Part shown: piece after piece, positions 1 through 11,920 of the stretch
Position numbering within the stretch: the first letter of the stretch is position 1
Layout of the letters: each line of letters starts with the position of its first letter
The notes under the pieces: model-generated
Databases searched by the model: none
Seen by the model: only the letters and a program-made list of their open reading frames with translations
Told to the model about the DNA's origin: nothing
From: Streptomyces sp. V2I9
GTDB taxonomy: Bacteria; Actinomycetota; Actinomycetes; Streptomycetales; Streptomycetaceae
DNA: 64,000 nt
Direction of reading: 5' to 3'
Assembly (NCBI RefSeq): GCF_030817475.1
Contig: NZ_JAUSZJ010000002.1
Span: 6,028,626-6,092,625 of the forward strand
Position numbers and translations under genes: made by a program

Positions 1-2289
1 GTTGGTCGTCGCTCTGTGCCTGCGAGGGGATCACCTCCCCGGCGTCCAGGCGGACGCTCGGCGCGTTCGCGGAGGACAGGACCAGTGCCTCGGGCCCGCG
101 GTGGCCGCGTTCCTCCAGCCGGGAGGCGACGTCGAAGGCGACCCAGCTGCCCATGCTGTGGCCGAACAGCACGTAGGGGAGGTCCGAGGCGGAGACGACC
201 GCCGTGATCACGTCCTCGACCAGCTCCTCCCAGCCCCTGGCGAAGTCCTCGACGAAGCGGCCCTCACGGCCGGGGTAGCAGACGGCGGCGAGCTCCACGC
301 CGGGAGGCAGGACGCCGGCCCACTTCATGTACGAGCTGACGCCTCCGCCGCAGTACCCGAGACAGATGAAGCGCTTGGCAGCCGTGAGGACCGTGCTGTG
401 GTACGGGTGCGCCACCGGGACGCGGACGGCGGCGAGCCTGTCGCCGCGCAGCCGGTCCATGAGCGCGTCGAGGGCGGTGGCCTCGCCGCTGAGCATGCAG
501 TCCCTGGCTCCGGGCACGATCGCCAGGGACACCGCCTCGCTCAGGTAGGGAGCAAGGGCCTCCTCCGTGAGGCGTACGCGGATCATCCCGCCCGGCGGTG
601 CGTCCCGCAGGATGCGGGCGCGTTCCGAGATCACCGTGGCGGCCTCGCCCAGGTCGAACACACCGGCGAGCACCCCGGCGGCGAGCTCGCCCAGGCTGAA
701 CCCGCACAGCGCCGAGGGCCGCAGGCCGTCCGCGAGCAGCGACCGGCCGATCACCACGGACTGCACCAGCAGGGCGAGTTCACCGAGGCGTGGCTCGGCC
801 TCGCCCGCGGGTGCGCCGGACAGCAGTTCTCCTACCGCGGTGCGGTCCTCGGCGGGCAGCGCTTGCAGGGCCTCGGCGAGCAGGTCCGCGAACCCGTCGA
901 TCCCGGCCGCGGCGCCGGTGAGATCGCCCGCCGGCTGTCCCTGGCCCGGCAGGACCAGCACATGGCCGAGCTTGCGCTTCGCGAGCCGGCTGCCCGTACG
1001 CCAGGTGGTGACCCCGCCGTCCCGCCGGACGGCCACGACGGCCTCCCGGTGGGGGAGCACTTGCCGCCCCGTGGCGAGGGTGTGGGCGAGGGCGCCGAGG
1101 CGCCCGGGATGCTCGGCGGCGAACCGCGCGACGCGCTCGGCGGTGTCCTGGGCGCTCCGCTCGGAGGCGGCGGACACCGGCAGTACGGCCACCAACTCGC
1201 CTGATTCCTCGACCGGTTCGGCGACGGGCGGCTCCTCCAGGACGACGTGCGCGTTGGTGCCGCCGACGCCCATCGAGCTCACCCCGGCCAGCCGCGGCTT
1301 CTCGCTCTCCCACGGGCCGCAGTCCTCGGGCACGAAGAGCCGGTCGCTCTTGGGCCTGATCTGCGGGTTGCGTTCCCTGAAATTCGCGACCGGCGGGATG
1401 CGGCCGTGCGCGAGGACGAGCGTCGCCTTGATGACGCCGAGGATGCCCGCGGCGGCGCCCAGGTGGCCGAGGTTGGCCTTGGTGGCGCCGAGTGCGCAGG
1501 GCACTCCGTCCGGCCCCAGCGCCTGTTCGATGGCCGCCCATTCGACGACGTCACCGATCGCGGTGGCGGTGCCGTGCGCTTCCAGGTAGCCGATCTCGCG
1601 CCTGTCGACGCCCGCGTTCGCCAGGGCCGCACGGATGACGCGGCTCTGCTGGGCCACGCTCGGCGCGGTGAAACCGACCTTCCGGTTTCCGTCGTTGTTG
1701 AGCGCGCTGCCGCGGATCACGGCGTGGACGGCGTCCCCGTCCGCGAGCGCCTGATCCAGACGCTTGATGACGACCGCGCCCGCGCCGCTGGCGGTGATGG
1801 TGCCGCCGGCGTCGGCGTCGAAGGGCCGGCAGGAGCCGTCGGCCGACCAGATGCTGCCGTCCTGGTGGTAGTAGCCCACCCGGTGCGGCAGTTCGATATT
1901 GACGCCCCCGGCCAGCGCCATGTCCGCGTCGCCATGCTGCCCGGGTACCGCAGTGGGTCGCAGCCCGCGTCCTCCAGGGCCGAGAGCGCGACCTCCATCA
2001 GGACGCGGCCGTTGAGGTTGAGTCCGTCGGCCTCCCCGGCGCTCATGCCGAAGGCGGCGTTGTCGAAGGCGTCGTACCCGTCCAGCGGCGCCGCGACCGG
2101 TACGTACCGGTTGCGCACCTCGGGGTCCAGGCTGATGTTCTCCCGCCGGCGGTCCTCCTCGCCGACTCGCACCATGCCCGTCGCCCCGGTCTCGATCCCG
2201 GTCCACAGGGAGCGGTAGTCGGCCGCCCCCGGAACCCTGCACGCCATGCCCACGATGGCCAGCGGCTCTTGCACCTGCTGCTCCCTCAC
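1..2289 (-). pseudogene. Type I PKS remnant: KS-AT fused to thioesterase, internally deleted
   Basis: The gene starts with a typical ketosynthase N-terminus (EPLAIVGMACRVPGA) and runs off the left window edge. A GTG start is possible at 2289; a second GTG at 2274 is better placed behind GAGGGAG. Near 1925-1935 the KS jumps from the RYPG region straight to DMALAGGVN in another frame. The segment that should carry the active-site cysteine (TACSTSL) is missing, while both KS histidine motifs (EAHGTATAIGD and NLGHLGAAAG) remain. An acyltransferase half follows (LPGQGQPAG; GFSLGE in place of the usual GHSxGE). It ends at VAHPYHS near 400 and passes without a stop into a type II thioesterase-like domain (ICLGYCGGG, GHSMG nucleophile). 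The lost KS cysteine and AT C-terminal half make it non-functional as read. It may be a decayed gene or an assembly collapse of a larger PKS locus. Confidence 0.8.
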
Positions 2290-2381
2290 GTAAAGCGGTC
2301 ACCGCGTCCGGGCCCACCGTGCCGCGAATTCCACGGCGCGGTGGTGGCCACTGCGGCGGCTTGAGAACCGGATCCTCAGCT

Positions 2382-4059
2382 TTACGCCGGCCGGCCGTCG
2401 ACTTCCAGCTGGGAGACGAACTCGCGCAACTGCGGGTAGTCGAAGAGCATGCGCAGGGTCGCGGACTGCGAGACCTGCTGGCGCACCTCCGCGATGGTGG
2501 CGCCCACCAGCAGCGAGTGCCCGCCCAGGTCGAAGAAGTCGTCGTGCGGGGATTCCACCGGCACGCCGAGCACCTCGGTCCAAATGGCGGCGACCGTCTC
2601 CTCGACGGGCGTGAACGCGGCGCCCTGTCCGCCCTCTTCAGAGGCCCGGTCCGCCGCCACGGCCGGGGTCGCGCCAGCGGCCTCGCCTCCCGCGAGGCCG
2701 GGCACGCGGGCCAGGACCTCGGCCAGGCCGAGGGAGTCCATCGGCGCGTCGGGCTCGTCCAGCAGCCTCGCGAGGATCTCCTGGTACGCGGCGGCGTACC
2801 CACGCGCGACCTCGTGGGGGTACGTACCGAGGGCGTACTCCCAGTCCAGCGCGATCCCCGTGTCGACGATGTCGCAGGCCACGTGCAGGTCGAACGGCCC
2901 CTGATCGGTCCGCGCGAAGACCTCGGACAGGTCGCCCTCGCCCAGTTTCAGGCTGCCGACGGCGCCCGCGGTGAACACCGTGCGCAGGATGTCCGAACCC
3001 AGCTGCTGCTCGGCGTCGAGGTCCGCGATCATCCTGCTGAACGGCAGGTCCTGGTGGTCGATGGCCTCCATGAGGTCCAGCGACACCTCGCCGAGCGTCT
3101 CGGCGAAGGACTGCGTCAGGTCGATCTCGGACCGGATGACGATGGTGTTGGCGAGCAAGCCGACCGTGCGCTCGAACTCGGGCGTCCGGCCGCTCGTGGC
3201 CATGCCCAGCACGGTGGTGCCCTCGCTCGTGGCGGCCGCGATCATCACCTTCATCACGGCCAGGAGGACGGAGAACTGCGTGGACCGGGTGCGGCGGGCA
3301 AAGGCCGTGAGGGATTCGGTCAGCGTGTCGTCGAGCGTGAGGGACATCAGGGCCGTGTCCCGCGCCACCGGCGTCCGCACGGAGCTGTGGACAGCGCCCG
3401 GGCAGGGCGCTGCCGGTGATTCCGGCGAGCCGCTCACGCCAGTACTTCCGCTCCTCTTCGTACGTGCCGTTCGCGAGCGTGGCGAGCTGCCTGTTGACGA
3501 AGGTGCTGTATCCGGGCGGTACGGGGCCGAGCTCGGCCGGGACGCCGCGGCGGGCCGAGCGGTACAGCTCGCCGAACTCGTCCAGGAGGACGGCCATCGA
3601 CAGGCCGTCACACACGAGGTGGTGGGCCACCAGCACCAGCGTGGTGCGGCTGTCCGAGACGCGGAGGGCGGTGAGCCTGATCCCCGCCTCGGCCTCCAGG
3701 TCGAACGGGCGGTTGGCCGCGGCGTTGATGGCCGACTGCAGCCGCTCGGACCGCTCGCCCTCCGGCAAGTGGCGCAGGTCCAGCACCTCAACAGGCCTCG
3801 GCTCCGGCTCGCGCGCGATGACCTGCACGGCACCGGCCTCGGTCTCACGGAAGGTCGTACGCAACGACTCGTGACGCCGGATCAGCTCGTTGAACGTGAA
3901 CTCCACTGCTTCGAGGACGAATTCACCCTCGAAGTGGAAAATCTCCGGCATGCAGTACGCGGGGCTCGCCGGATTCAGCCGCCAGAACAGCCACATGCCT
4001 TCCTGGAGCGGGCCGATCGGCAGCGTTTCCGTCATCGGCTCGGTGCTGTTAACGGTCAC
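2382..4059 (-). pseudogene. NRPS condensation domain plus C-terminal carrier domain, frameshifted
   Basis: The GTG start at 4059 overlaps the upstream carrier gene by four bases (GTGA). The first ~215 residues are the N-terminal half of a condensation domain with the HHxxxDG catalytic motif as AHHLVCDG. The frame then changes near 3397-3399, where a GGG run on the coding strand needs to be GG to stay open. The second half (SVRTPVARDT onward) completes the C domain and ends in a peptidyl carrier domain with the phosphopantetheine serine in FFDLGGHSLLV. There is no adenylation domain, so the substrate must be loaded in trans. With the single-base correction the product is about 558 residues. 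The gene lies between a free carrier protein and the PKS remnant on the same strand and is probably co-transcribed with them. Confidence 0.8.
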
Positions 4060-4319
4060 GCCGCGCTTCCCATCATGTCCCGGAGATCGCGGAGGGTTTC
4101 CGCCTTGAAGAATTCCCGCAGTCGAATACGGACCCCGAACTCCTCACGGATTCGCGCAAGGACTTCGAGTGCGTCGAGGGAACCGCCCCCGAGAGCGAAG
4201 AAGTTGTCATCGAGTGTGCAGGAGGTGTTCAACCGGGTGCACACGATCGACAGCAGGCGGTCCCCGACGTCGTCGAGAGCGGGATCATCCGCCTCAACTG
4301 CGACTTCATCGACGCCCAT
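4056..4319 (-). CDS. Free-standing acyl/peptidyl carrier protein
   Basis: A small carrier protein of about 87 residues. The phosphopantetheine-accepting serine lies in NFFALGGGSLDALEV, the pattern of PCP domains. It would carry the growing acyl or aminoacyl chain as a thioester for the adjacent condensation and ketosynthase enzymes. The ATG at 4319 is chosen because GAGGAG lies just upstream; an ATG eight codons earlier lacks a comparable site. The stop overlaps the start of the C-PCP gene by four bases, which indicates translational coupling. It is the first gene of the minus-strand biosynthetic remnant and appears intact. Confidence 0.8.
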   Translation of the reverse strand: MGVDEVAVEADDPALDDVGDRLLSIVCTRLNTSCTLDDNFFALGGGSLDALEVLARIREEFGVRIRLREFFKAETLRDLRDMMGSAA

Positions 4320-4729
4320 GTGTTCCTCCTCATGCCTCAACATCAGCCTTGCCGCTTTCAGTTACCGGGGGAGGGACGCCTCCGTGGCTCCGGGGGGAGA
4401 CCAGGCGTGAAGGCAGTTCCGTCACAAGGCGATTCCTGGCGTCCTTGCCGACGCGTACAACTCCGCCGCCGCACCCCCGAAGCGGGCGAGAGTTAGTCAT
4501 TCTTGGACGGATGCGCGGCATCGCCGGATGCTCCGCCAGTACGAGGAAGCCCGTTCAGCGCAGCACCCAGGGCAACTAGGAGACACCCGAATTCCGCGTG
4601 TGCGCAATTGCCAGTGCTGCCCAACCCCTCACGCTGATCGCCGAGTTCGCGTCATCGTATGCAAGCGTCTCTGTACGGCGCAAGACCTGTTTTTGCAGGA
4701 CAGTTGCACCCCGATCACGCCGGCGGTGA
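4320..4729. other. Gene-free stretch upstream of the NRPS/PKS remnant
   Basis: No convincing coding region or structured element is seen. It must contain the promoter for the minus-strand biosynthetic genes. The right part may also hold the broken N-terminus of the CoiA-like gene: possible zinc-finger-like cysteines are scattered over different frames. Confidence 0.4.
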
Positions 4730-5550
4730 GCCTCTGGTGCTACAGCCATCGCCCACAACCCCGGCAGACCGCCGGATTGCCAGCTGTCCAACGAGTCCGT
4801 CGAGCACCACCTACTGAAGCTGGAACTGGCTACTTCCATACGGGCCGCCGGGTGGCATGCGGAGATCGAAGTACGGGCCCCTGACGGCTCGTGGCGGGCA
4901 GACGTCATGGCCTCCTCGCCGGATGGAGACCGACGCACGGCCTGGGAGGCTCAGCTCTCCCCCATCAGCCATGACGACCTCCGTGAGCGGACGGGCCGGT
5001 ACATCGACGACGGGATCGGAGTGTGCTGGGTCTCGCCACGCGACGACGTGCCGTGGCTCGGCACCGCCCCAGCCGTGCGCGTCATTCCACCCCCGACCGG
5101 CACAGCGGCGTGGACCGTGGCCGACGGCATCGCCCAGTTCGACGAGGGCCAAGGAGCCTGGATCAGGGTCAAGAACACCGAGCTGGGCACCTTGGTCCGC
5201 TGGGCTGTGAACGAGCAGTTAGCCCCTCACCCCGTGCTTCCCCGGTATCGCCGGATCCATCTCACACAGGGGGGCCGTACATCCCGCCGCGCGATGATCT
5301 GGACGACTACACGATCCACCGCGGCCGAAGCCCGGCACGAGAAGAAGCGCCAGCGGCAAGAAGCGTGGAAACGAGATTAGCAGCAGCGCGAACAGGAAGC
5401 AGAGGAACGCAAACACCAGGAAGAAGAAGCCCGGAAGAAGGAAGAACAACACCTCCGCAAGATTGAGGCGGACGCCGCCGAGGCACGGGCCCGCGAGCGC
5501 CACCGCCTATTGATGATCAAGCTGGAGACTGAGCGCGTCCGCCGGGATGC
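4730..5550 (+). pseudogene. CoiA-like (competence/nuclease-like) protein remnant
   Basis: The open frame after a TGA at 4727 encodes HNPGRPPDCQLSNESVEHH, then GWHAEIEV, WRADVMAS, AWEAQLSPIS and RTGRYIDDGIGVCWVSP. This is the nuclease-like core of the CoiA-like family common in Streptomyces, with the E-x-Q style motif in WEAQLS. The N-terminal zinc-finger part is not readable in one frame. An in-frame TAG at 5378-5380 interrupts the charged coiled-coil tail, which continues in frame (QQREQEAEERKHQEEEARKK) to about 5550. There it runs without a gap into a different gene in another frame. At least one stop and a broken N-terminus make it a pseudogene. Its biological role in Streptomyces is not known. 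A rare TTA codon occurs at 5219. Confidence 0.7.
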
Positions 5551-6072
5551 GGAGCGGAGACGCACAGGACCAGCAATTCGGAGGAAACAGGCTCTGGCGG
5601 CCGACGCGCGCTCACCTGCTGTGGGTGCACCACATGATCGACCGCGGAATCTACGACGAGCAGCTCGGCCAGCAATTACATGCTCTGGCAGGCAAGTTCA
5701 CCACCAGTCTCGGCCGGTTCTCCTACGACGCCGGGCACCACGCCAAGGCTCGGCAGTACTTCTCCGAGACACTGAACGCTGCGATGCTGACCGGCGACGA
5801 TGTGCTCTCCAGTCGGACGCTGAGCAACATGGCCCGCCAGGCCGTGGACCTGAACAAGGGGCGTGAGGCCATCCGCTTTGCCCGGCTCGCGCAGACACAC
5901 GCGAGTATGTGGAGCGCGCCCACGCGTGTCACGGCACTCTTGGCGATCCGTGAGGCCCAAGGGCACGCCCGGGTCGGCGACGCTTTCAACTGCGAGTCCG
6001 CGATCAAGCGGGCCTGGAAGGAATGGGAACTCGGGACGGACGACCGCGACCCTGATTGGACGACGTTCCTTA

Positions 6073-6962
6073 TAGCGGCTAACACAATGAGCTGATCTGT
6101 CGGTGGGTGATGCAGCAGCAGGCGAGCTTGAGGAAGGCCTCGTGTATGTCTGCTCGTCGTTCCCAGCGGATGCGGAGGCGTTTGAAGCCGTGGAGCCAGG
6201 CGAAACTGCGCTCGACTACCCAGCGGTAGCTTCCCAGCCCGGTGCCGTGGAGGGTGCCGCGGCGGGCGATGGCCGGGACGATGCGGCGTTGGCGGACCTG
6301 TTCGCGGTAGATGTCGTGGTCGTATCCGCGGTCGGCGAAGAGTGAGTCCGGCTTGCGTCGCGGGTGTCCGATCCTGCCTCTGATGGGTGGGATGGCGTCG
6401 ATGAGGGGCATGAGCTGGGTGACGTCGTTGCGGTTGCCGCCCGTGAGGATTACGGCGGGCGGTGTGCCGTTTCCGTCGGTGATCAGGTGGTGTTTCGATC
6501 CGGTTCGGCCACGGTCGACCGGACTCGGTCCCGTCTGACTCCCCCTTTTATGGCGCGCACGTGGCTGGAGTCGACCACTGCACGCGACCAGTCGAGGCGG
6601 GCCGCCGCGTTGAGCTCGGCCAGCAGCACTTCGTGCAGCTGCTGCCAGACGCCGGCCTCGTTCCAGTCCCGTAGTCGCCGCCAGCAGGTCATGCCCGAGC
6701 CGAAGCCCAACTCCTGCGGCAGGAACTCCCATTGGATGCCGGTGTGCAGCACGAAGAGGATGCCGCACAACACCTGCCGATCCGGCAGCGGCCTCCGTCC
6801 CGGGTGCCGAAACCGGCGTTCCTTGCGCGGCAGCAGCGGCTCTATCCGCTCCCACAGGTCATCCGACACGATCCACGGCGAAGTCCCCATGCCCGAACAA
6901 CGCCCAACTCCTGACGCGGACACGGCCACCACGGCCTATGCACCTCATTGTGTTAGCCGTTG
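6073..6962 (-). mobile_element. IS5-family insertion sequence, 890 bp, with TTA target duplication
   Basis: Near-identical inverted ends face outward. The left end reads CGGCTAACACAATGAG at 6076-6091 and the right end is its exact complement at 6944-6959; both extend by a few mismatched bases to 6073 and 6962. Direct TTA copies flank the element at 6070-6072 and 6963-6965, in line with TNA-type targets of some IS5 groups. The element carries one transposase in two overlapping frames on the minus strand. Confidence 0.85.
6079..6932 (-). CDS. IS5-family DDE transposase in two frames (probable -1 frameshift)
   Basis: The first frame runs from about 6932 (or the ATG at 6890, MGTSPWIVSDDLWERI) to 6483. 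It contains the N-terminal domain and the first catalytic Asp region (VVDSSHVRA). The second frame continues as GPSPVDRGRTGSKHHLI, with the remaining DDE motifs in LFADRGYD and WVVERSFAWLHGFKRLRIRWERR, and stops inside the left inverted repeat. The frames meet at AAAAGGGGG near 6543-6551, where a -1 slip restores a family-like sequence. Two-frame expression by -1 frameshifting is known in parts of the IS5 family, so the element may be active. A plain sequence error is the alternative. Confidence 0.85.
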
Positions 6963-7334
6963 TTAACCAGGCCGAATTGGTGTGCCTGGAAGGGATGTGC
7001 CGGCTCGACCTCGGCCAGACCGCACGCGCTCAGAGGCTCCTGGCGCAATCGGAGAAGCTGCAGGACGTGGCGCACTCGCGGAACAGAGGCATGTGCTTGG
7101 GTCGGCTCGCGACTGCGGCCATCGGCGCAGGGGACATTGAGCACAGCGTCGATGCCGCGAGGAAGGCCATCGGTCTGATCCGGACGGCGGGTCTGTCTTC
7201 CGCTCGGGCAGTCCAGCAACTGAAGGTCGTCCACGATGGACTGGCTCCTCGATACCGTGCCCGTGGGGTAGGGGACCTGCTCGAAGAGATCCGCGCGGTT
7301 GTCGCATGATTCGGTAAAAGGAGAGATGTAGCCA

Positions 7335-7883
7335 GTGGATGTGGAGTACCAGCGATACGATTGGGCGTCAGTCAAGGTTGTCGCCGACGAGATGGTCGAG
7401 GTGTACGCAAGGGTGTACGACAAGCCCCCGTACACCGGCGATCCGTTCTTCTCCGTCGCCTCCTTCCGGGAACGACTAGAGACGGCTTTCGATAGCGATG
7501 GCTTCGAGACCGTGACCGCGTGCAGGGGCGGGCAGATCATCGGATACGTGCACGGCGCCACGCTGCCCGTCGACAAGCCGTGGTGGATCTCCCTCGGCAC
7601 CCGGAGGCCGATGCAGCTCCAGACCCTCGCGGACATCCGGCAGGTCTTCTGGCTCCGTGAGCTGATGGTCCTCCCCGAGCACCAGAACCAGGGCCTCGGC
7701 AGAAAGATCCATGACACCGTGATCTCGGGACGCGCGGAGAGCGCCACCACCCTGACCTGCATCATCGACAATCAGCCAGCGCATGACGCCTATCTGCGAT
7801 GGGGGTACACGGTGATGGGGGAGATCAGGCACGCCCCAGAGTCACCGATCTACAACGCCATGTACCTGCCTAGCTCACGATGA
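7335..7883 (+). CDS. GNAT-family N-acetyltransferase
   Basis: A 182-residue protein with the GNAT fold signature. The central ELMVLPEHQNQGLGRKIHD carries the acetyl-CoA pyrophosphate-binding Q/RxxGxG/A loop, followed by CIIDNQPAHDAYLRWGYTVMGE, the C-terminal beta-bulge region. It would move an acetyl group from acetyl-CoA to an amine; the acceptor cannot be told. The GTG start at 7335 follows GGAGAG. Its stop overlaps the next gene by ATGA, so the two are probably one transcript. It sits in the island between the broken regulator and the integrase. Confidence 0.85.
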   Translation: MDVEYQRYDWASVKVVADEMVEVYARVYDKPPYTGDPFFSVASFRERLETAFDSDGFETVTACRGGQIIGYVHGATLPVDKPWWISLGTRRPMQLQTLADIRQVFWLRELMVLPEHQNQGLGRKIHDTVISGRAESATTLTCIIDNQPAHDAYLRWGYTVMGEIRHAPESPIYNAMYLPSSR

Positions 7884-8422
7884 CCGGAATGGTCATGTAC
7901 CAGATACCCGCCCAGTCCTCCCCAATCGCGGCGGCTTCCGGTCGTGGTGACCGAATTGCGCCGGATGCTGCGATCTTGTTCGCGTACGGGACGCTCCAGT
8001 TCGATGCCGTCCTCGAAGCGCTGGTCGGCCGGGTGTCACAGAAGGTGTCGGCTAGCGCGCCCGGCTGGCGCGCGGCGTCCCTGGAGGGCCGGGTCTGCCC
8101 GGGGCTCGTAGCGGCGCACGGCTCCGCGGCGCCCGGCGTACTTTTCACCGACCTCAGCCGGAGGGAGTGGACGATTCTCGACGCCTTCGAGGACGACCGC
8201 TACGACCTGCGCGAGGTGACGCTGACCTCCGGCGAGCGAGGACTCGCCTATGTCTGGCCGGACGGCGAGGTACTGGAGGAGGACTGGGATGCTGAGCAGT
8301 TCCGTGCCCGTCATCTTGGCGAGTACGCCGCGCGGTGTGCGCGGATTGCCCCGGGGCTGATCGCCGGAGCCGGCCAACGAACCGGGCGGACTGCGCCCGA
8401 GCGCGACGAAAATGGAGCATGA
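7880..8422 (+). CDS. Gamma-glutamylcyclotransferase-like (AIG2/GGCT fold) protein
   Basis: A 180-residue protein with the hallmark ILFAYGTLQFDAVL near residues 33-46, the substrate-binding loop of the GGCT/AIG2 superfamily. ILDAFEDDRYDLREVTL supplies the region where the family keeps its acidic residue. Members convert gamma-glutamyl amino acids to 5-oxoproline or act on related gamma-glutamylamines; the substrate here is unknown. The ATG overlaps the stop of the acetyltransferase gene. A strong hairpin lies 54 bp after its stop, so the pair forms a closed two-gene unit. Confidence 0.8.
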   Translation: MTGMVMYQIPAQSSPIAAASGRGDRIAPDAAILFAYGTLQFDAVLEALVGRVSQKVSASAPGWRAASLEGRVCPGLVAAHGSAAPGVLFTDLSRREWTILDAFEDDRYDLREVTLTSGERGLAYVWPDGEVLEEDWDAEQFRARHLGEYAARCARIAPGLIAGAGQRTGRTAPERDENGA

Positions 8423-8475
8423 ATTAGACCAGCGGTAGCTGACAGCTGTCCGTGCGGCAGCGCGACGACTTGTCC

Positions 8476-8510
8476 GTAGGCGGCCCCCGGGTCACCCGGG
8501 GGCCGCCTAC
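8476..8510 (+). terminator. Strong intrinsic hairpin after the GNAT-GGCT unit
   Basis: A perfect 16-bp stem, GTAGGCGGCCCCCGGG, pairs with its complement across a 3-base TCA loop. No U-tract follows, as is usual for Streptomyces terminators. Confidence 0.85.
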
Positions 8511-9412
8511 GCTTTCGGTCGGCGAAGGCATGCGCCGGGTTCAAGGTGCCTGTGAACGGCTTTTCGCTTCACCAAGGTCGAGACGAACGATTACGCGGTG
8601 CCTAATCACGGGCATTCGCTCACGGCGGACAGGAAAGAATCCCCAAGGACTGGATACCTCTGCCGGGATCATGCCAACGTACAACGTCCCGGAAGATGCC
8701 AGCCTAGACACCTGGGTTAGGCGGCGAAGCGAAAGGCTCCACAGCCTGGCCGGGAGGGTCGCTGTGTTGCGATGGCCCGTACTTGGGAGGCATATCTGTC
8801 CGAACCTTCTATCCGATACGCCCGCTTCACTTCACCCGCGCTCTTTGCCCTCGGCGGATTGAACGCTTGGGTCGGCCGAGCGGCGGGTGATTACCTCGTC
8901 GTCTCCACCAGGCTCTGCGTCCGTGCCTGCGCGGCCGGCCTGTTCGGTGAGGACCTCCTGCAACGCGGACGCCGCGCTGATCGTGTTGTCCTCACGTTCG
9001 TTGCGACGCATCCCGAAGCCACAACACGGCAAGGCGCGGACCCTCAGGATTCCCCAACGCCGCGCTACGCGTCATCTCGACCGGCTCACGGAGACAGCCT
9101 GCTGGCGGTCGCCGCGGGAGGTGGACCGAGAGCCCTGCGCGGCCTCGAAATCGGCCAGCACAAGCAGACGTCGGATTCGTGATGCGGCGCGCAACATAGA
9201 CCATGTTCGCCGGTTAGCCAAACCGGCGATCGCGACCACCATTGGGGCAAGGGATGAGCCAACGCTTGGCGACGTAGCCTTTCGCGCGTCCATATAGGGC
9301 GAGCCGCCAATGCAGCGGGAGGATATTAGTTGGTGCTCGTTGTGGACGTATCGCAATGACGCCTCTGATCGTATTTCCATCCCTGCGGGGCTGACTAGGA
9401 GGACAAGGGAAA
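8511..9412. other. Gene-poor stretch of the island upstream of the integrase
   Basis: No clear gene is seen in 900 bp. A short minus-strand frame (about 8832-9008, starting MRRNEREDNTIS) has partly GC-rich third positions but no recognisable family. A hairpin (CGCCGGTT / AACCGGCG) lies at about 9208-9229. No excisionase-like ORF is evident directly before the integrase. Base composition is lower in GC than in the chromosome to the right. Confidence 0.5.
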
Positions 9413-10606
9413 ATGGCCGATATTAAGAAGATTACACTCGGTTCAGGGAAGGTGAGATACCGATTCGTTATCGATATCGGGCGAGGGGAGGGTGGTAAGC
9501 GTAAGCAGCTAACGGTTACGCGAAACACGCTTCGAGAGGCCAAAGCGGAGCTGCTTCGAATTGAAAGCGAACGAGGTTCGGGCACATTCGTTCAACCTAG
9601 TCGACTGACGGTCGGTGATTGGATTGACCAATGGTTGGAAAAGAAGGCGGAGGACCTCGAAGTGACCACGATCTACAACTATCGAATCACCCTGGATCGG
9701 GTTCGAGGAAAGCTTGAGGGGATCCTGCTTCAGGAGCTCACTGAAGAGGATGTGGAAAATTGGGTGAAATGGACCCTGAAGTATGGTCGTGTTCGCGGAA
9801 AGGGGGCAGGGGCGCCGCTTGCGGTGACGACAGTTGACATGAGTCTAGCGCGGCTTAAAGAGTGTTTGAATCGCGCAGTGACCAAGCGGCTGGTGTCCAT
9901 GAACGTGGCTCAAAATCTTTCAATTCCGCGTCGGGCGCGAAAAGAAGAGCGGAAGAATAAGGAGGAGCTGAAGCCTTGGGATGTTGCAGAGGTTCATGTA
10001 TTCGTGCGGGGAATTCAAGCGGATAGGTTTTACGCCCCGCTCTTGCTTTCTCTTATGGGGCTTCGCCCGGCGGAAGTCTGCGGACTTCGTTGGGAAGATG
10101 TCGACTTGGAGTCCGGCACTATTCGCATTGCTAATACGCGCACGATGATGGGCAACCGGACGGTGGTTGAGAAAGATACAAAGTCGATGGCTGGAGAGCG
10201 GGAGCTTCCCCTACCAGCTCCGGTTTGGGGTGCGCTCCGGTCGTTCAAGTCCCTCCAGGCCACGGAAGAGCTGGCCCTCGGGCCCGACTACCGTGACTCT
10301 GGCTACGTGCTGGTGGACGAGGTAGGGGAGGTTCGGAACATCAAGCAACTCCGTCGACGGGCGTACCGAATCATGGCCCTGCTGGGTCTGCGTCGGGTGC
10401 GCCTCTACGACGCGCGAGCGACCTGCTTCACATATCTCGCCAACATGGGGGTGCCCGACCATCTGCTGGCTAGGTGGGCGGGGCACACGAACGTCCGCAC
10501 CACCAAGAAATGGTACGTCAAGCCGGGTGTGGAGGATCTTCGCGGAGCCGCCACAGTGTGGGGAGGGCTGCACGGGTCTGGCGGAGGACATACCGCAGAG
10601 TCGTGA
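9413..10606 (+). CDS. int: Tyrosine recombinase / phage-type integrase
   Basis: A 397-residue site-specific recombinase. The N-terminal arm and SAM-like domain (about residues 60-160) precede the catalytic domain with LLSLMGLRPAEVCGLRWEDV (first catalytic Arg), YDARATCFTYLANMG, WAGHTNVRTTKKWY (His and nucleophile Tyr) and an AGERELPLP beta-hairpin region. The box II motif, normally HxxR, reads YDAR, so the first His is replaced by Tyr. The ATG follows AGGAGG. Codon use is clearly less GC-biased than in neighbouring chromosomal genes, which indicates transfer. It ends 30 bp before pcaL and would catalyse integration or excision of the island that ends there. Confidence 0.92.
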   Translation: MADIKKITLGSGKVRYRFVIDIGRGEGGKRKQLTVTRNTLREAKAELLRIESERGSGTFVQPSRLTVGDWIDQWLEKKAEDLEVTTIYNYRITLDRVRGKLEGILLQELTEEDVENWVKWTLKYGRVRGKGAGAPLAVTTVDMSLARLKECLNRAVTKRLVSMNVAQNLSIPRRARKEERKNKEELKPWDVAEVHVFVRGIQADRFYAPLLLSLMGLRPAEVCGLRWEDVDLESGTIRIANTRTMMGNRTVVEKDTKSMAGERELPLPAPVWGALRSFKSLQATEELALGPDYRDSGYVLVDEVGEVRNIKQLRRRAYRIMALLGLRRVRLYDARATCFTYLANMGVPDHLLARWAGHTNVRTTKKWYVKPGVEDLRGAATVWGGLHGSGGGHTAES

Positions 10607-10636
10607 GTGATTGTGAGAGATGAGAGGTTAAGACCT

Positions 10637-11920
10637 ATGAGTGAGACGCAGCCGCAAGCGATGAAGTACCAGGTAGATGGGCCAGAGGACGCACCTTGGT
10701 TGGTGCTCGGTCCTAGCCTCGGTACTACATGGCACATGTGGGACCGCCAGATTCCCGAGCTGTCGCAGCACTGGCGGGTCTTCCGCTACGACCTGCCCGG
10801 CCACGGCGGCGCGCCCGCCCACGCCGCCGCCTCCGTCGCCGACCTCGCGGACCGGCTGCTGGCGACGCTGGACGGGCTCGGCGTCCAGCGGTTCGGCTAC
10901 GCCGGCTGCTCGATCGGCGGGGCGGTCGGCGCGGACCTGGCGCTGCGCCACCCGCACCGGATCGCCTCGCTGGCGCTGGTCGCGTCCTCGCCCCGGTTCG
11001 GCACGGCCGACGAGTTCCGCCGGCGGGGCGTGATCGTCCGTACCAACGGCCTGGAGCCGATGGCCCGCACCGCCCCGGAGCACTGGTTCACCCCCGGCTT
11101 CGCCGCCGCCCAGCCCGCCATCGTCGAGTGGGCCGTACAGATGGTCCGGACCACCGATCCCGGCTGCTACATCGCCGCCTGCGAGGCGCTCGCCGCGTTC
11201 GACATCCGCGGTGCGCTGGGCCGGATCGGCGTCCCCACGCTGGTGCTGGTCGGAGCGGAGGACCAGGTCACCGGCCCCGCCGAGGCCCGCACGCTGGTCG
11301 CCGGGATACCGGACGCCCGCCTGGCGCTCGTCCCCGGCGCCTCCCACCTCGCCCCCGTCGAGCAGCCCGCCGCCGTCAGCGACCTGCTGCTGACGCACTT
11401 CTCCACCGGCTGGCAGCAGGACACCTCGGCCGCGATCCCGGTCCTGCCCCACGCCCCCGGCCCCGCCGTCCCGGCCACCCCGTTCGCCCCGGTGGCCGAG
11501 ATCGCGTCGGCCGCCGCGCCCGCCGCCGTACCGACGCCCGACGACCGGTACGAGCAGGGCACGCGGGTACGCCGGGAAGTGCTGGGGGACTCCCATGTGG
11601 ACGCGGTGAACGCCACGGCGGACGCCTTCACCGAGGACTTCCAGGAGCTGGTCACCCGGTACGCCTGGGGCGAGGTGTGGAGCCGGGACGGCCTCGACCG
11701 TCGCACCCGCAGCTGCATCACGCTCACCGCTCTGGTCGCCTCCGGCCACCTGGAGGGCCTGGCCGCGCACACCCGCGCCGCCCTGCGCAACGGACTGACG
11801 CCCGCCGAGATCAAGGAAGTCCTCCTCCAGACCGCCGTCTACTGCGGCCTCCCGGCCGCCGGGGCCGCGTTCGCCGTCGCGGGAAAGGTGATCCAGGAGG
11901 AAACCACACCCCCCGCGTAG
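10637..11920 (+). CDS. pcaL: Fused 3-oxoadipate enol-lactonase / 4-carboxymuconolactone decarboxylase
   Basis: Residues ~1-260 are an alpha/beta hydrolase with the nucleophile elbow GCSIGG and the late His in GASHLAPVEQP (PcaD part). After a proline/alanine linker, residues ~305-427 are a carboxymuconolactone decarboxylase domain (YEQGTRVRREVLGD; ITLTALVASGHLEGLAAHTRAAL; PcaC part). The enzyme performs two late steps of protocatechuate catabolism to 3-oxoadipate. In Streptomyces, pcaL is normally the last gene of pcaIJFHGBL; here its left neighbour is an integrase and no other pca gene is present. The first ~100 bp (10637 to about 10740) use AT-rich codons, then codon use turns sharply GC-rich. 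This suggests the 5' end was rebuilt by the integrated element. ATG at 10637 follows AGAGG. Confidence 0.9.
   Translation: MSETQPQAMKYQVDGPEDAPWLVLGPSLGTTWHMWDRQIPELSQHWRVFRYDLPGHGGAPAHAAASVADLADRLLATLDGLGVQRFGYAGCSIGGAVGADLALRHPHRIASLALVASSPRFGTADEFRRRGVIVRTNGLEPMARTAPEHWFTPGFAAAQPAIVEWAVQMVRTTDPGCYIAACEALAAFDIRGALGRIGVPTLVLVGAEDQVTGPAEARTLVAGIPDARLALVPGASHLAPVEQPAAVSDLLLTHFSTGWQQDTSAAIPVLPHAPGPAVPATPFAPVAEIASAAAPAAVPTPDDRYEQGTRVRREVLGDSHVDAVNATADAFTEDFQELVTRYAWGEVWSRDGLDRRTRSCITLTALVASGHLEGLAAHTRAALRNGLTPAEIKEVLLQTAVYCGLPAAGAAFAVAGKVIQEETTPPA

Follow-up and report, generated by a model that had tools for sequence, protein, structure and literature searches.

An integrative element inserted in the 5' part of pcaL in Streptomyces sp. 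V2I9

Organization of the int-pcaL locus

The window, which is the whole stretch of 64,000 nucleotides analysed here (C2:6028626-6092625 of a 7.16 Mb genome), contains pcaL close behind a tyrosine integrase gene. The following features were assigned in and around this locus, with positions counted in the window.

9413-10606, + strand: tyrosine integrase of 397 aa, open frame (Pfam PF00589, 1.2e-14; alignment with relatives)
10602-10628, + strand: P arm between the int end and the pcaL start, with GTGA-type repeats and GAGAGG (sequence, repeat counts)
10637-11920, + strand: pcaL, bifunctional enol-lactonase/decarboxylase (NCBIfam NF051488)
10637-10735, + strand: element-borne head of pcaL, 33 codons including the ATG start, MSETQPQAMKYQVDGPEDAPWLVLGPSLGTTWH (identity profile, GC3, genus-wide boundary)
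10736-11920, + strand: native body of pcaL, bifunctional enol-lactonase/decarboxylase (profile matches, attL/attR comparison)
10727-10736, + strand: attR core ACATGGCACA, common to attL (attL/attR comparison)
-21539 to -21530 (C2:6007086-6007095), about 21.5 kb left of the window: attL core, the same 10 bp
1-10726, no strand assigned: right third of the 32,266-bp element (attL and attR located, flanks joined)
264-4343, - strand: part of an NRPS/PKS-type cluster with ketosynthase, condensation and carrier domains (Pfam domain matches)
5547-7309, + strand: two TPR-like gene pieces (weak Pfam matches) flanking a transposase gene
6483-6932, - strand: IS4/5-family transposase gene between the two TPR-like pieces

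PcaL scored 554.3 bits against NF051488 (bifunctional PcaDC), for which the cut-off is 390. Thirty bases lie between int and pcaL, whose new head is read in frame with the body and is preceded by GAGAGG, the likely ribosome-binding site. No promoter was found by a simple sigma-70 scan. GC3 is 0.63 in codons 1-30 of pcaL and 0.63 in the integrase gene, versus 0.95 in the pcaL body, where none of the 364 windows of thirty codons was as low as the head. The initial annotation had noted AT-richer codons at the 5' end of pcaL and a tyrosine recombinase as its upstream neighbour, and both observations were confirmed.

The catalytic motif of tyrosine recombinases is R...HxxR...H/W...Y. R218, R335, H358 and Y368 of the integrase are kept in 15 aligned relatives. 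In box II, Tyr332 occupies the position where HxxR normally starts with His, and Tyr is found there in all 15 rows. Despite Tyr for the first His, the protein belongs to the tyrosine recombinases/integrases by its Phage_integrase catalytic domain. The closest integrase in plasmid records has 53% identity. An integrase relative before pcaL was also seen outside the genus Streptomyces, in Actinacidiphila oryziradicis.

Both attachment sites and the restored empty site

In close element-free relatives, pcaL opens with VSEVSETTPQP, which is followed by a Pro/Gln-rich stretch of variable length and then by LQYRFDGPEDAPVLVIGPSLGTTWHMW. A short native start is seen in many of the remaining native-type genomes. 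In V2I9, the displaced native start stands at attL. It comprises about 205 codons, largely Pro/Gln-rich, reads to GTTWHRW and then a stop, and breaks at the shared 10 bp. The breakpoint sequence is GGGACGACATGGCACAGGTGG at attL and GGTACTACATGGCACATGTGG at attR, and the common part is the direct repeat ACATGGCACA, which a comparison with element-free strains had been expected to reveal. The integrated element, measured between the two shared cores, spans 32,266 bp.

When the flanks were joined in silico, the resulting pcaL start resembled that of element-free relatives. Within 60 bp on each side of the joint, the joined flanks showed an identity of 0.93-0.97 to genomes G126 and G127; farther left the variable linker lowers these values, and one 30-bp step reached 0.00 for G126. 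At attR, the identity to G126 and G127 rose from 0.67 over the last 30 bp before the joint to 0.93 over the first 30 bp after it, and the corresponding values were 0.63 and 0.90 for G019 and 0.53 and 0.93 for G052. At attL, the identity to G126 and G127 fell to 0.47-0.50 in the 30 bp right of the joint. The core at 10727-10736 overlaps the sharp change previously placed near 10730-10745, and the island that begins beyond the left edge of the window extends to about 10.73 kb, where 10.6 kb had been given. These results indicate that attR is a real junction with its partner 32,266 bp to the left. They bear out the supposition of the initial annotation that an element entered pcaL in its 5' part and gave it a rebuilt start.

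Two further left ends were found in other genomes. In G085 the native head likewise breaks off at these codons (TTWHRL, then a stop), giving a second attL beside the membrane-protein gene described below, and an intact integrase adjoins pcaL on a different contig of this genome. G055 has a decayed third attL beside the membrane-protein gene, with 62 bp that are 94% identical to the native head of G096 and end in CCTGGCA. Altogether, among 103 genomes with more than 2.5 kb between pcaL and the membrane-protein gene or with the two on separate contigs, only 3 had a native head cut at the core beside the membrane-protein gene (1.5 kb or more of flank was covered in 98 of the 103), so most left ends have been lost or exchanged. 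An 18-bp pattern across the core was also tried as an attL finder and was unproductive: 34 of 36 genomes gave one match only, two (G065 and G080) gave two matches each, the second with 2 mismatches, and the attL of V2I9 is too divergent to match.

Cargo and mobility of the element

Beyond the left edge of the window, the NRPS/PKS-type cluster goes on with genes for AMP-binding proteins, ABC transporters and a phosphopantetheinyl transferase. Besides condensation, carrier and ketosynthase domains, the selected island ORFs matched two AMP-binding proteins and a phosphopantetheinyl transferase. Two ABC transporters, a PLP-dependent decarboxylase and a helicase were also recognised, as were several transposases and a serine-recombinase fragment. 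The match to an Mrr-like nuclease near attL just reached the cut-off, and that to a Cys/Met PLP enzyme fell slightly short of it. Reading frames of the cluster are broken in places within the window. The condensation domain is split over two overlapping frames (2382-4059), which suggests a frameshift or a sequencing error, and the TPR-like pieces stand around the IS4/5 transposase gene as if one gene had been split.

TraB/FtsK (PF01580) gave 14 matches in the genome and none inside the element (C2:6007080-6039346). RepSA (PF20199), the one replication protein searched for, also gave none inside it, the sole match in the genome being at C2:542936-544237, and no excisionase was matched inside the element with HTH_17, the one excisionase-like domain family searched. 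No conjugation genes were recognised in the element. By the TraB/FtsK, RepSA and HTH_17 searches, the island does not pass as an AICE. Elsewhere in this genome (C2:541487-544237), an integrase match with one internal stop codon adjoins the HTH_17 and RepSA matches, and this region is likely a separate AICE.

The left neighbour of pcaL

A membrane-protein gene is the left neighbour of pcaL in element-free relatives. Its one homologue in V2I9 has its match end at C2:6006439, 22 kb left of the window, and the displaced native pcaL start stands directly after it. The initial annotation had placed the rest of a pcaIJFHGBL operon beyond the left edge and had advised looking there for pcaIJFHGB followed by the original 5' end of pcaL. 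The original 5' end was found as predicted, preceded by the membrane-protein gene and not by pcaIJFHGB. No match to PcaB or PcaH reached the family cut-off in this genome (these being the two pcaIJFHGB products searched for), and pcaB does not precede pcaL as it would in such an operon. On the left neighbour and the PcaB and PcaH searches, the idea that the island pushed pcaIJFHGB aside was rejected. PcaB exceeded the cut-off in 20 of 36 genomes searched, and in the three compared (G013, G110 and G118) it lies 250-400 kb away from pcaL.

The membrane-protein gene is present in 148 of 150 genomes and in all 129 kept pcaL genomes. It shares a contig with pcaL in 112 of the 129, always on the same strand (112/112), with a gap ranging from 44 bp to 499 kb: below 300 bp in 16 genomes, 300-1000 bp in 6, 1-2.5 kb in 4, 2.5-10 kb in 29, 10-50 kb in 31, 50-200 kb in 24 and above 200 kb in 2. 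Gaps also occur in native-type genomes (twelve at 2.4-7.2 kb, three at 78-99 kb), and in several of these other genes lie between the two, so the distance alone proves nothing. It was rejected as a gauge of this element alone.

Start types of pcaL across the genus

At a threshold of 1e-60, pcaL was matched in 131 of 150 genomes, and 129 were kept; G001 (6e-65) and G105 (3.5e-65) were excluded because their best matches were far weaker and look like a paralogue of about 50%. Three genomes without a readable anchor (G068, G143 and G082) were left untyped. The remaining 126 starts were typed by regular expression as 85 element-type and 41 native, and retyping of seven by eye (six to element-type, one to native) gave 90 and 36. 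An integrase of the family or its remnant was found upstream of 22 of the 90 element-type starts and of 1 of the 36 native ones, the latter being a 43% match. These integrases are intact in some genomes and decayed in others.

The mutual information between start type and base, taken in 12-column bins between -84 and -1, decreased from 0.147 to 0.024 bits per column; the typing stretch reaches into the first of these bins only, whereas the by-eye step covered the whole head. Of the 84 columns left of the core TGG, 35 exceeded the 95% level obtained with 200 label shuffles, against 5 of the 150 columns between the core TGG and +150, where the mutual information was 0.001-0.019. The shuffles take no account of kinship, and a better control is given by the columns on the right of the core. 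On a tree built from 50 pcaL bodies, 14 switches of start type were required, at least 9 of them forced by starred branches, versus a mean of 16.6 with shuffled labels (52-59 of 500 shuffles were as low); the rows of this tree are the 30 best pcaL matches plus 20 chosen genomes (19 native, 1 element-type) and are not a random sample. Taken together, the column test and the tree switches indicate that heads and bodies are nearly independent, with the boundary at the core. A start exchange of this kind appears to have taken place on many occasions within the genus.

Element-type starts without an integrase had been named in advance as evidence against an inserted element, and such starts with no integrase match do occur (68 of 90, with up to 2.5 kb upstream searched). 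Because the head/body boundary lies at the core in the pooled set, they are read as scars, and the conclusion that was to follow from them was not drawn.

At five loci (L057, L061, L068, L069 and L071), a different conserved remnant lies about 130 bp or less upstream of pcaL, before an element-type head. Judged by eye, it looks like the C-terminal end of an IS110-type transposase, and the spot before pcaL may thus be favoured by a second kind of element.

Integrase loci and elements in series

The sequence downstream of the integrase was compared at 82 loci, 80 from named genomes (some of these being the same genomes as in the integrase search of the genus) and 2 from viral contigs. A head followed by a pcaL body was found at 63 loci, a head without a detected body at 13, and neither at 6, as judged within the flank covered. 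The sequence ends there at two of the 13 body-less heads (L279 and L284). At the remaining 11 loci the head stops at the core (GTTWH) and other DNA follows. This DNA is alike in 8 of the 11 (GGTTGTAGAGACCGTC and similar, with matches of 25-340 bp). Over the 1.5 kb compared, the DNA of L334 matches that of L357, and both match none of the rest at E 1e-3; that of L341 matches none of the other ten. The left ends of the V2I9 island and of G085 are 76% identical over 121 bp, and the G085 left end matches two of the eight alike loci. From these sequences, we read the head-only junctions as probable left ends of further elements in a row, in which the head would travel with the element.

In two strains, a single contig bears an integrase relative before pcaL and another before a head-only junction: S. 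cellulosae NRRL B-2687 (L309/L334) and Streptomyces sp. DH41 (L336/L350). These pairs are as expected for islands in a row.

The GTGA-type repeats of the P arm are proposed as integrase arm sites. GTGA[CGT]A occurred 1.83 times per left end (12 junctions, L341 excluded; 0.11 when shuffled), frequently at around 95, 106 and 117 bp from the core. Around the start codon, it occurred 1.87 times in element-type heads (n = 90; shuffled 0.06) versus 0.39 times in native heads (n = 36; shuffled 0.04). At least two GTGA-type repeats upstream of the start codon were found in 48 of 90 element-type versus 0 of 36 native starts.

Discussion

The best explanation, to which we assign a probability of about 95%, is that a circular int-bearing element recombined into attB in pcaL and remade PcaL with a short N-terminus. 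The attP of the element would have recombined with attB at the codons for TT-W-H-M-W. At attR, the element supplies the proposed arm repeats, the likely ribosome-binding site, the start codon and 33 in-frame codons, so that PcaL would presumably be expressed in the shortened form. The native start, which carries the long Pro/Gln-rich extension, is stranded at attL and ends there at WHRW. The role of Int as catalyst, the function of the arm sites and a present-day ability to excise are steps that we infer. Several observations weigh against this explanation: the scarcity of native heads cut at the core (3 of 103 genomes), the other genes between pcaL and the membrane-protein gene in several native-type genomes, the Tyr in box II of the integrase, the six integrase loci with no head in the flank covered, and the absence of an excisionase match in the one domain family searched and of a promoter in the simple sigma-70 scan. 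The junction, the mechanism as judged by anatomy and the genus-wide recurrence are well supported.

Three other explanations were weighed. Element-type heads might have spread mostly by homologous recombination between species after few integrations, which would account for the 68 starts lacking an integrase match in the upstream sequence searched and for the rarity of attL among the genomes surveyed. However, homologous tracts could end anywhere, whereas the boundary in the pooled set is at the core; intact integrases adjoin many heads, and head-only junctions cut at the core occur. We consider this explanation unlikely. Somewhat less probable again is a decayed prophage or phage satellite in place of another kind of genomic island: the cargo of the element is a biosynthetic cluster with transposases, and Pfam scans of selected element ORFs gave no phage structural domain, although two IMG/VR contigs (30 and 34 kb) bear integrase relatives and the best 15 of 69 phage records are led by mycobacteriophages and Rhodococcus phage REQ2, with about 34% identity to the integrase. 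A chance rearrangement that joined an unrelated integrase gene to pcaL, for which the transposases in the island are the sole argument, is practically negligible, as the att cores match, the empty site is restored and the integrase-pcaL arrangement recurs in many genomes.

Integration of an int-bearing element into pcaL agrees with known elements that enter the 5' end of a gene. The original paper on SXT in prfC is reportedly that of Hochhut and Waldor (1999). The pcaL element shows a direct repeat, a displaced start and an in-frame replacement head, as do elements of the SXT/prfC and dusA type. For SXT in prfC and for dusA islands, PMC8409611 describes entry at the 5' end, a new promoter and a new N-terminus. 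The mechanism proposed for pcaL matches these islands. SXT/R391 differs in target and host, and in the pcaL case the protein loses about 170 residues of native N-terminal extension. The dusA elements such as IMEVchUSA3 use a different gene and host, are described as mobilised by IncC plasmids and had their expression measured. AICEs of the pSAM2 type share with the pcaL element Streptomyces hosts and mostly tyrosine integrases, and in one case several elements at one site (PMC9513070 and PMC3218068). They reside mostly in tRNA genes, whereas the pcaL element resides in a protein gene and lacks TraB/FtsK and RepSA matches. In 11 Streptomyces strains, integrative elements were counted in tRNA genes 36 times and in protein genes 14 times (PMC9513070). 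The literature searches, which covered open-access papers, brought up none among the entries listed that names pcaL of Streptomyces as an attachment site.

These results identify pcaL as an integration hot spot in a Streptomyces protein-coding gene, for which both att sites, the left-end sequence and many natural integrases are now available, and the integrase/att pair is a possible integration vector. Because a biosynthetic gene cluster occupies the site in this genome, island-borne pathways may be sought there. We tentatively propose, at slightly under even odds, that the first 33 or so codons of Streptomyces pcaL are a replaceable, element-borne part which a family of integrative elements has swapped repeatedly. 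The element-made starts would outlast the decayed elements in most strains, and rows of islands would have been built at this site. By removing the native start and bringing new signals, the elements may have rewired a step of aromatic-acid catabolism more than once. It is suggested that the N-terminus of a gene can be turned over repeatedly by mobile elements and still be element-made after their loss.
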